DNA of 64,000 nucleotides from Stenomitos frigidus ULC18 (GTDB lineage: Bacteria > Cyanobacteriota > Cyanobacteriia > Leptolyngbyales > Leptolyngbyaceae), in contig NZ_PVWK01000160.1 of NCBI RefSeq assembly GCF_003003795.1, positions 1 to 64,000 of the forward strand, given 5' to 3'. Under the pieces are notes generated by a model. The model was not told the DNA's origin. It ran no database searches and saw only the letters and a list, made by a program, of their open reading frames with translations. This document shows, piece by piece, positions 61,263 to 63,930 of the stretch. The stretch's first letter is position 1, and each line of letters starts with the position of its first letter. Position numbers and translations under genes: made by a program.

Positions 61263-61853
61263 CTATCTAGTTGTACCAATCTGCCTAAAGAAGCGTTCTA
61301 TAAGACATCCAAACCTGGGCAGAATCGGTGAGGTAATAGTGTCCTGGGCGGTGTAGGTAGCGGCTCGTTTGAGGACTGCATTCTCGCGGCGGTAAACTTC
61401 GACCTGTTGCAATTCTCGGCTGACGATCCAATACTCCTCAACGCCTTGAGATGAGTAAAGTTTGAGTTTAGCTTCGCGATCGCGTCGTTCATTCATCACA
61501 CCCGGAGATAGCACTTCGACGATGAGTTCAGGTGCGCCTGTAAAATGTCCCGCTTCGTCGATGAAACGCTCCATGCGTCCAACACTGATCCAAACCGCAT
61601 CGGGGATAACATTATCGGCATCGCTGAAGATGATGCCAGGAGTTGGGAATGCTTCTCCTAGCTGCGTCTCGTCTGACCAGTTGCCTAATTCATTACAGAT
61701 GTTACGAATAACGGCTTGATGTCTCAGATGTGGTGCTCTGGTCACAAAGAGTTCTCCGTCAATGATTTCGTAGTGCTTCCACTCATCGGCTGCAAGGAGT
61801 TCGAGATCGGCAGTCGTCCAGCGAAGTTTTTCAGACGAGGTTTGTTGACTCAT
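61263..61853 (-). CDS. Uma2-family (DUF820) endonuclease-like protein
   Basis: A 196-aa protein with the restriction-endonuclease-like fold: YEIIDGELFVTRAP, DAVWISV (PD in VIPDA), ELIVEVLSPGVMNERRDREA and KLKLYSSQGVEEYWIV, with Asp-Glu-Lys active-site residues. Cyanobacteria carry many copies; function unknown, nuclease activity inferred. The gene is bounded by HIP1 repeats. Confidence 0.9.
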   Translation of the reverse strand: MSQQTSSEKLRWTTADLELLAADEWKHYEIIDGELFVTRAPHLRHQAVIRNICNELGNWSDETQLGEAFPTPGIIFSDADNVIPDAVWISVGRMERFIDEAGHFTGAPELIVEVLSPGVMNERRDREAKLKLYSSQGVEEYWIVSRELQQVEVYRRENAVLKRAATYTAQDTITSPILPRFGCLIERFFRQIGTTR

Positions 61854-62113: not shown

Positions 62114-62419
62114 TCAAGGCAGATCTTCAAACAGAGCAGTCAAATCCTGATAGCCACTCACTACCCTGAGTACTTCGATATCGTCATTGAGTAAACGGTA
62201 AAAAATGAGGTACTGCGCGTGGGGCAAACTGCGTGAGCCAGGATAAAGTTCATCTCGTTTGCGACCAATTTGAGGAAACTGAGCAATCCGTTGAAGGGTG
62301 GCATCGATGCCGCTCAGAAACCGTTCGGCGCTGGTTAAACCGTTTTGGGCCGCAAGATAATCTGCAATTGCTTCAATATCTCGACTGGCGAGGAGTGTAA
62401 GTCGACAAACTCGACTCAT
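62114..62419 (-). CDS. RelE/ParE-type toxin
   Basis: A 101-aa ParE-like toxin (LTLLASRDIEAIADYLAAQN, FPQIGRKRDELYPGSRSLP and YLIFYRLLNDDIEVLRVVSG). ParE toxins act on gyrase and RelE types on ribosome-bound mRNA; the family alone cannot say. The ATG overlaps the antitoxin stop (ATGA, 62416-62419). Confidence 0.9.
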   Translation of the reverse strand: MSRVCRLTLLASRDIEAIADYLAAQNGLTSAERFLSGIDATLQRIAQFPQIGRKRDELYPGSRSLPHAQYLIFYRLLNDDIEVLRVVSGYQDLTALFEDLP

Positions 62420-62679
62420 GTTTGGGAATAGCGCTGGCGTAATCGTTGGCGAATCGCTTCGATTTCAGTCGCAGCATCCAGGAGTTCTCCCCGTTCGGCG
62501 GCTTCAACTCCCAGCAGCACCTCACGGCGTAATGCTTCAAACCGTCCCTGATAAATTTGTTCCCGCTCTGCTAATGCTTGCAGTCCCGCAAGAAGGATTT
62601 CTTCTAGTGAGGCATATTTACCACTGGCAATCTGGCGATCGGCAAACTGCTGTAAATCTGGCGGCAGTGGCATAGTCAT
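62416..62679 (-). CDS. ParD-like antitoxin
   Basis: An 87-aa protein with the ParD type ribbon-helix-helix N-terminus (PLPPDLQQFADRQIASGKYA then SLEEILLAGLQALAEREQ) and a helical toxin-binding C-terminus. First gene of the module; a second ATG at 62673 could be the start. Confidence 0.88.
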   Translation of the reverse strand: MTMPLPPDLQQFADRQIASGKYASLEEILLAGLQALAEREQIYQGRFEALRREVLLGVEAAERGELLDAATEIEAIRQRLRQRYSQT

Positions 62680-62730
62680 TGTTGTACTCGAACGTGGGCA
62701 CTCATTTTTTCAGTTTAACGTACCTGTGGA

Positions 62731-62815
62731 ATCGCCCCAATATGACTGGCTCAAGGGCGATCGCAGTCAGCAAAACCTGAAACGACGATCGCCCCTTCGC
62801 TTCACAAGCGCGATC
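62731..62815. repeat. HIP1-containing repeats B3 and A2
   Basis: B3 (62731-62764, ATCGCCCCAATATGACTGGC then TCAAGGGCGATCGC) followed by A2 (62767-62815, CAGCAAAACCTGAAACGACG then ATCGCCCCTTCGCTTCACAA). A2 repeats at 63545-63592. Confidence 0.82.
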
Positions 62816-62833
62816 GTCATTTGTGAACTGGCT

Positions 62834-63247
62834 TCAACTCCCCAGTAGCGCTCGAAAGCCTGCTTGATTAAAATGGTCGTCTGCCGTGAGCGCCTCTATC
62901 ATGCCTCGCTCCTGCATCACAACAAACGATACGCAGTCAATCAGTCCCCACTCTTTGTCGAGACGATTCTTGAATAAGTTGAAGGCAGCTTCGTAGAGGT
63001 CGTTGGATAATGAAACGATTTCAACGTTGGGGTCAGCGATCAGTGATTCAAGAAGCTGAATTGCTGGAACTCTGTATCGTTGTTTAGAGAGTGCATTGCC
63101 AATTTCTAAGAGGATTGCTTGTGTTGTCACTAAGCGAGTGCCACTCTTTTCAAGCTGATTGGCAAGATCAAGCGCTCGTGCATGATGTTTGTCAGTGGTG
63201 GCAGATAGCGCAATGGCAAACGATGTATCGAGAAAGACCTCAGACAT
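62834..63247 (-). CDS. PIN-domain toxin (VapC-like)
   Basis: A 137-aa PIN nuclease from ATG 63247. FLDTSFAIALSATTDKHH holds the first acidic residue, LEIGNALSKQRY the second, and EWGLIDCVSFVVMQE the third. It would cleave RNA. Its start overlaps the antitoxin stop by eight bases. Confidence 0.88.
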   Translation of the reverse strand: MSEVFLDTSFAIALSATTDKHHARALDLANQLEKSGTRLVTTQAILLEIGNALSKQRYRVPAIQLLESLIADPNVEIVSLSNDLYEAAFNLFKNRLDKEWGLIDCVSFVVMQERGMIEALTADDHFNQAGFRALLGS

Positions 63248-63476
63248 TTTCTTGAACAGCGTCACTATACAAGTAGTGATCTAAATTTGCTGACCAATCG
63301 GGAGCGCCTTGCAAATGAAGCGATTTGGCAGTTTGCAGAAACGACTTTGGGTTTGCTGATGTCTCTGGCGAGACGCTCTCAACCGTTATTCGTACTAGTG
63401 TGCCAGCTTCCAGGTCTAGAGGCGCTGTTGGATGAAGGGTGGTGCCATCAAAGACAGCTTCTACTATTTGGATCAT
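63240..63476 (-). CDS. antitoxin of the PIN module (DUF104-like)
   Basis: A 78-aa protein from ATG 63476: MIQIVEAVFDGTTLHPTAPL then DLEAGTLVRITVESVS resembles DUF104/AF2212-type antitoxins. C-terminal part (SLHLQGAPDWSANLDHYLYS) should bind the toxin. Confidence 0.82.
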   Translation of the reverse strand: MIQIVEAVFDGTTLHPTAPLDLEAGTLVRITVESVSPETSANPKSFLQTAKSLHLQGAPDWSANLDHYLYSDAVQENV

Positions 63477-63544
63477 GGCTGTTCTCACAACTGCGATGTC
63501 CTTAGTATATCCGCTCGATTTAACTAACTCGGCTGGCGATCGCA

Positions 63545-63613
63545 ACCAGCAAAACCCGAAACACGATCGCCCCTTCGCTTCACAAGACGATCGCCCCTGC
63601 ATAATTGGCTCAA
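63545..63613. repeat. HIP1-containing repeats A3 and B4
   Basis: A3 (63545-63592, ACCAGCAAAACCCGAAACAC then GATCGCCCCTTCGCTTCACA) overlaps B4 (63588-63613, GATCGCCCCTGCATAATTGG then CTC). Confidence 0.82.
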
Positions 63614-63628
63614 ATGCTTAAAACTCAA

Positions 63629-63678
63629 TGAGCCGGATGAGTCTTCGGCGAACCTACCAACCCATCCGGCTCGGTTTT
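63629..63678. terminator. probable bidirectional terminator
   Basis: GAGCCGGATG (63630-63639) pairs with CATCCGGCTC (63663-63672), and four T follow on the plus strand (GGTTTTATC). On the minus strand the stem is followed by ATTGAGTTTT. It bounds the template-repeat-like element on its left. Confidence 0.7.
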
Positions 63679-63930
63679 ATCTTTGGAGGTTGTTGCCGTC
63701 CTCACTGGGAAGGGTCTGGACTCTTCTGTGTACGCCCGGACAATTCCCATTGCCCAGTTCTGACGGTAGAAGAGTGCTGGAAACACCGAACACACCACCC
63801 GAAAACCAACATTGTTGTTGCGGTCGGCGGGAGCATTATAGTTGCGGTTGGCAGCGCGACAGTTCACCGGATTGTTGTTCCAGGAACCGCCACGTTTACC
63901 GACGCCAATCCCAACTCAGGTCTCGACGAG
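63673..63930 (-). other. candidate diversity-generating retroelement template repeat with structured RNA tail
   Basis: The minus strand encodes RGGSWNNNPVNCRAANRNYN then APADRNNNVGFRVVC (63790-63893), the form seen at the C-terminus of formylglycine-generating-enzyme-like proteins that are variable targets of DGRs. AAC/AAT triplets (W-NNN, R-NNN) are intact, as in a template repeat. An in-frame TGA lies about eight codons upstream of RGGSW, so it is not the end of an intact gene. After FRVVC, complementary pieces ACTCTTCT (63720-63727) and AGAAGAGT (63768-63775), with inner GGACAAT/ATTGCCC, could form a hairpin. No reverse transcriptase is in the window. A remnant of a formylglycine-generating-enzyme-like gene is the alternative. 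Confidence 0.5.

Follow-up and report, generated by a model that had tools for sequence, protein, structure and literature searches.

Is the minus-strand sequence at the right edge of this locus, which reads like the end of a gene for a formylglycine-generating-enzyme (FGE)-like protein, the template repeat (TR) of a diversity-generating retroelement (DGR), and if so, which enzyme copies it? The window analysed here comprises bases 1-64000 of contig C141 (133 kb), part of a draft genome of 6.98 Mb in 167 contigs with 100% estimated completeness. The first-pass annotation had proposed a DGR template repeat at this edge, and comparison across the genome bears it out. The minus strand of 63771-63897 holds a true template repeat of a DGR, TR2, whose target is the variable repeat VR2, located 305 bp upstream of it. 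The features of the pair are as follows.

63771-63897, minus strand: TR2, DGR template repeat (donor); its differences from VR2 are confined to TR adenines in the core
63916-63918, minus strand: in-frame TGA upstream of the TR reading frame, by direct sequence reading
C141:64076-64202, minus strand, past the window edge: VR2, variable repeat of TR2, at the 3' end of VP2
C141:64071-65471, minus strand, directly beyond the window edge: VP2, 466 aa, TIR (TIR_2) plus FGE-sulfatase/C-type-lectin (CLec), from domain matches

The minus strand of TR2 reads KRGGSWNNNPVNCRAANRNYNAPADRNNNVGFRVVCSVFPAL, also written RGGSWNNNPVNCRAANRNYNAPADRNNNVGFRVVC. Over 118 aligned bases, VR2 differs from TR2 at 17 of the 23 TR adenines and at none of the 95 other bases (Fisher p=7e-16); the ungapped 127-base alignment holds one extra non-adenine difference, beyond the 3' block. 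The TR2 adenines appear in VR2 as T (7), G (6), A (6) and C (4), and both repeats contain an invariant, IMH-like 3' block, GTTGGTTTTCGGGTGGTGTGTTCGGTGTTTCCAG, which is nearly adenine-free. Since the differences sit at the adenines of the window copy, the signature of mutagenic retrohoming, TR2 is the donor, and the lack of any non-adenine difference argues for recent homing. The annotation had staked its claim on a near-copy differing only at adenines, and not evenly at all bases, and on a DGR reverse transcriptase (RT) in the genome. Such a copy is found in VR2, with adenine-only differences in the core, and the RT exists. The variable region read as FGE-like is also real, as the FGE-sulfatase domain of VP2 ends in VR2 at its C-terminus, and the in-frame stop noted upstream is the TGA listed above. 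A promoter scan near TR2 returned only a weak match.

The run of toxin-antitoxin genes said to adjoin the element lies directly downstream of TR2, at window positions 62114-63602, and consists of ParE/ParD and PIN/AF2212-like genes, the AF2212 match falling slightly below the Pfam cut-off. A Uma2-family gene is present at 61263-61853. C141 encodes bioB and is therefore most likely chromosomal. VP2-TR2 is embedded in it with more than 60 kb on each side, and a search of the contig gave neither an RT hit nor an RT fragment, even at E<=10; an RT remnant on C141 was rejected on this basis. The RT and Avd expected near 64 kb are present in the genome, but on contig C59, and the TR2/VR2 pair is thus not part of a complete cassette in cis.

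The sequence downstream of TR2 contains a structured RNA with the following elements.

63630-63776, minus strand: structured TR-RNA tail, Rfam RT-14 (RF02921), 52.0 bits against a gathering score of 48.1
63655-63776, minus strand: match of model R1 to the TR2 tail, 108.6 bits
63720-63775, minus strand: helix P1, ACUCUUCU / AGAAGAGU, from sequence, consensus structure and compensatory changes
63738-63755, minus strand: inner stem GGGCAAU-GGGA-AUUGUCC, enclosed by P1
63685-63705, minus strand: helix P2, GUGAGG...CCUCC, from consensus structure and compensatory changes
63620-63672, minus strand: terminal hairpin GAGCCGGAUG...CAUCCGGCUC (63630-63672), then AUUGAGUUUU

We assign the RT-14-matching RNA to DGR templates, as their 3' tail. 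In an alignment of the corresponding region of 44 templates from relatives, P1 closes from the template end, the inner stem forms around GGGA, and P2 follows, with compensatory changes in 18 of 24 pairs. The fold has 97.2% of cells paired and a covariation of 0.534, compared with 0.247 in shuffled alignments and at most 0.143 when slid, which indicates that it is under selection. The compensated pairs of TR2 itself are GGGCAAU/AUUGUCC and GAGG/CCUC; the commonest form of P2 in other loci is GUGAUG...CAUCC. R1, a covariance model built here, is broader than the narrow Rfam RT-14 model, as none of 12 related loci scanned, C59 included, reached the RT-14 gathering score. With R1, the TR2 tail and that of TR1, the template on C59 (108.4 bits), are the only two tails in the genome. 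The hairpin of TR1 is placed similarly to the TR2 terminal hairpin and differs in sequence. The predicted terminator-ended hairpin corresponds to 63630-63672 followed by a short T run, although a simple terminator scan did not flag it, and the left boundary, drawn at 63673, falls short of the functional RNA, which extends to about 63625-63630. In BPP-1, a folded spacer 3' of the TR recruits RT-Avd (PMC12875486), and by analogy the TR2 tail may have the same role.

The enzyme candidate on C59 is a single gene.

C59:5078-6190: DGR-type RT, the sole one in the genome, with motifs IGNLTSQ and YVDD

This RT shares 60-76% identity with RTs from other DGR loci of cyanobacteria that have TR/VR pairs, and is directly preceded by Avd (NF033474, 136.2 bits against a cut-off of 80; also PF22296). 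C59 additionally carries TR1 together with three FGE targets; in one of these, the FGE part is fused to an N-terminal region of SAV_2336 type. TR1 fits its own three VRs; as the donor of VR2 it is excluded, with 17 non-adenine mismatches against 0 for TR2. RT hits on contigs C13, C94 and C48 are only 22-30% identical to the DGR RT, and the reading frames of those on C13 (632 aa) and C94 (538 aa) have a length typical of group II intron proteins, which makes it unlikely that they are DGR RTs. Contig C59 is most probably a plasmid, given its replication gene (CyRepA1 NF042913, 344 bits, cut-off 200), its partition genes (ParB TIGR00180, 124 bits, cut-off 58, and a ParA-like gene) and its MobA/VirD2 relaxase (MobP). 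No overlap was found between the contig ends, leaving it unclosed, its HIP1 density is about half that of the window and its GC is slightly different. It may therefore have been misassigned through a binning error; the HIP1 and GC differences also suit a plasmid. The C59 DGR (L020:7675-14869) lies in a conflict-type cluster with the SAV_2336-FGE target, a MoxR-like AAA ATPase, CHAT and Trypco2, a setting resembling that described for DGR-linked ternary conflict systems (PMC10907252).

To place this arrangement in context, R1 was searched against 390 cyanobacterial genomes, one per species. The tail was found in 100 of them, and a comparison of tail and RT positions revealed many tails with no DGR RT nearby. 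About 45 such RT-distal loci were examined, taking the best VR by a score blind to changes at the adenines of the template, so that the counts at other bases are the informative part. Comparable modules number 13, in 12 other genomes; the differences between template and VR are given below, at adenines and then at other bases.

G131, RT elsewhere: 8/28 and 0/90; closed chromosome
G047, first module, RT elsewhere: 10/27 and 0/91
G047, second module, RT elsewhere: 8/25 and 0/90; RT remnant nearby
G268, RT elsewhere: 20/29 and 1/89
G123, RT elsewhere: 17/27 and 2/91
G321, RT elsewhere: 11/20 and 2/98
G011, RT elsewhere: 15/28 and 1/90; short contig, target gene frameshifted
G297, no detected DGR RT: 14/27 and 0/91
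G186, no detected DGR RT: 12/27 and 0/91
G103, no detected DGR RT: 14/29 and 1/89
G041, no detected DGR RT: 16/28 and 0/90; genome 85% complete
G154, no detected DGR RT: 9/20 and 2/98
G366, no detected DGR RT: 8/20 and 1/84; fragmented

Seven modules thus have a DGR RT elsewhere in the genome and six have no detected one. Compared with the distal VRs, the RT-linked templates show 15-26 non-adenine mismatches and the local template 0-2 (G000, G131, G047, G123, G268, G321). Template and target are 288-536 bp apart in most RT-distal modules (724 and 1410 bp in two), and in RT-linked loci the best-matching VR is more than 900 bp away in 42 of 45. The tails of 15 RT-distal loci taken alone are 97.5% paired with a covariation of 0.608, and are therefore not decaying. 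The rate of non-adenine differences is 0.31% in RT-linked loci, 0.82% in distal modules whose genome has an RT at another locus and 1.25% where the genome lacks one, the last group also counting the decaying G098 module. This is the order expected if supply in trans maintains the modules, though their number is too small for a firm conclusion. Another four loci average 12% non-adenine differences and look decayed, with G213 and G206 retaining only an RT fragment; they were grouped after the mismatch counts were known, and the grouping is descriptive only. On balance, we lean towards the view that non-autonomous modules, consisting of a target, a private template and the fold but no enzyme, are dispersed in cyanobacterial chromosomes and owe their diversification to an RT-Avd acting in trans from another locus, in some cases a plasmid-borne one, such that one mobile mutator can serve several sensor-like genes.

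Several other observations were made on these loci. The G041 module (L124:2863-4914), from a genome that gave no RVT_1 hit, targets an FGE protein of caspase-like type (Peptidase_C14). The near-complete genomes G046 (a single contig) and G098 have a TR tail and zero RVT_1 hits. Among 49 loci tested, 18, nearly all of them RT-distal, have the 3' end of an FGE gene directly abutting the RNA tail (L121, L123, L126, L146, L147, L150, L153, L155, L161, L169, L176, L177 and L179-L184). Most of these lack a separate template, as would result from recombination between VR and TR with loss of the intervening stretch, and some of their tails have the lowest R1 scores. In several cyanobacterial DGRs (L033, L040, L050 and L128), template and VRs do not share a strand with the RT gene, and the template must therefore be transcribed separately from the RT. 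At L127 (G025:C1:1994420-1995436), the DGR RT contains an internal TAA and the neighbouring RNA tail looks intact; the genome, a single contig, has a second DGR RT.

We consider it probable that VP2-TR2 is a chromosomal, non-autonomous DGR module that has a private template and borrows RT-Avd in trans from C59. Transcription across about 63900-63620 would yield an RNA containing the template and the RT-14 fold. RT-Avd from C59, probably a plasmid, would bind this fold and copy TR2 into cDNA with random bases opposite adenines. The cDNA would then replace VR2 and could rewrite up to 23 adenine-encoded positions on the lectin-like face of the TIR protein. In N. punctiforme, a cyanobacterial template RNA is highly expressed and the targets show adenine-specific diversity (PMC12691664). 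For TR2, we infer transcription, binding by RT-Avd in trans and current activity; the other genomes in which the RT lies elsewhere and the RT-linked templates do not match point to supply in trans.

A rather unlikely alternative is that the module is a recently stranded relic, that TR2/VP2 formerly relied on an RT in cis or on a helper since lost, and that VR2 is now frozen and ignored by the C59 RT. The adenine pattern can persist for some time after the enzyme is gone, as the six modules with adenine bias kept in genomes with no detected DGR RT (G297, G186, G103, G041, G154 and G366) illustrate, and G098, with zero RVT_1 hits, has a decaying module with 4/97 non-adenine differences. However, the absence of an RT fragment from C141, the 0/95 non-adenine differences, a tail kept as well as the RT-linked one and a compatible RT-Avd in the same assembly all speak against a relic. 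It is less likely still that the activity comes from a second DGR RT. With 167 contigs such a gene could be unassembled, and several relatives have at least two DGR RTs, but estimated completeness is 100%, VP2-TR2 is over 60 kb from either end of a contig with no RT hit, and the genome contains exactly two TR tails.

Hardly any weight can be given to the idea that the repeat is no template but simply the duplicated end of a gene, left over from a tandem copy of an FGE gene. It does encode an FGE-like C-terminus, and FGE paralogues occur elsewhere in the genome. A decayed copy would differ at all bases, whereas every core difference falls at an adenine of a single copy, and the repeat is followed by an RNA fold with covariation; the base specificity already refutes this explanation, and a decayed tandem copy was rejected on these two observations.

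The arrangement matters for how DGRs are counted. Surveys have been keyed on the RT gene (Roux et al.), and RT-anchored searches miss non-autonomous modules; if templates can exist away from their enzyme, genomes hold more diversifying genes than such surveys count. The modules also suggest a testable rule for the RNA requirement of RT-Avd, namely an RT-14-like fold rather than a given template sequence. Should C59 be representative, acquiring or losing a plasmid could turn the diversification of chromosomal TIR and caspase-like sensors on or off.

A limited literature search, covering few subscription papers, found none describing dispersed targets with private templates and no RT. The BPP-1 DGR has Avd, TR and RT together in cis, with the TR before the RT, whereas VP2-TR2 has no nearby RT; the likeness lies in the folded spacer 3' of the TR, which is set beside the TR2 tail by description and not by RNA sequence. 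The tail at 63630-63776 exceeds the gathering threshold of RT-14 (RF02921). A DGR with two templates has been reported previously (PMC6642488), and the cyanobacterial RT clade is called 5E (Dore et al. 2024, PMC10907252). With cyanobacterial DGRs (PMC7517822), the locus shares adenine-specific TR/VR pairs, RT-Avd, occurrence on some plasmids, and CLec target genes that carry the VR close to their 3' end and are fused to TIR, CHAT, peptidase or kinase domains. In Thiohalocapsa PB-PSB1 (PMC10907252), RT-less loci likewise still diversify, which was explained by trans action. The complete locus in that case is DGR 2, whose template is matched by the VRs at DGR 4 and 5, whereas VR2 matches only its own adjacent template. 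Remote DGR target genes are already known in cyanobacteria (Vallota-Eastman et al. 2020, PMC7517822) and were assigned to the RT-linked template; in contrast, the TR2/VR2 locus comes with a template of its own, and the RT-linked template is mismatched.
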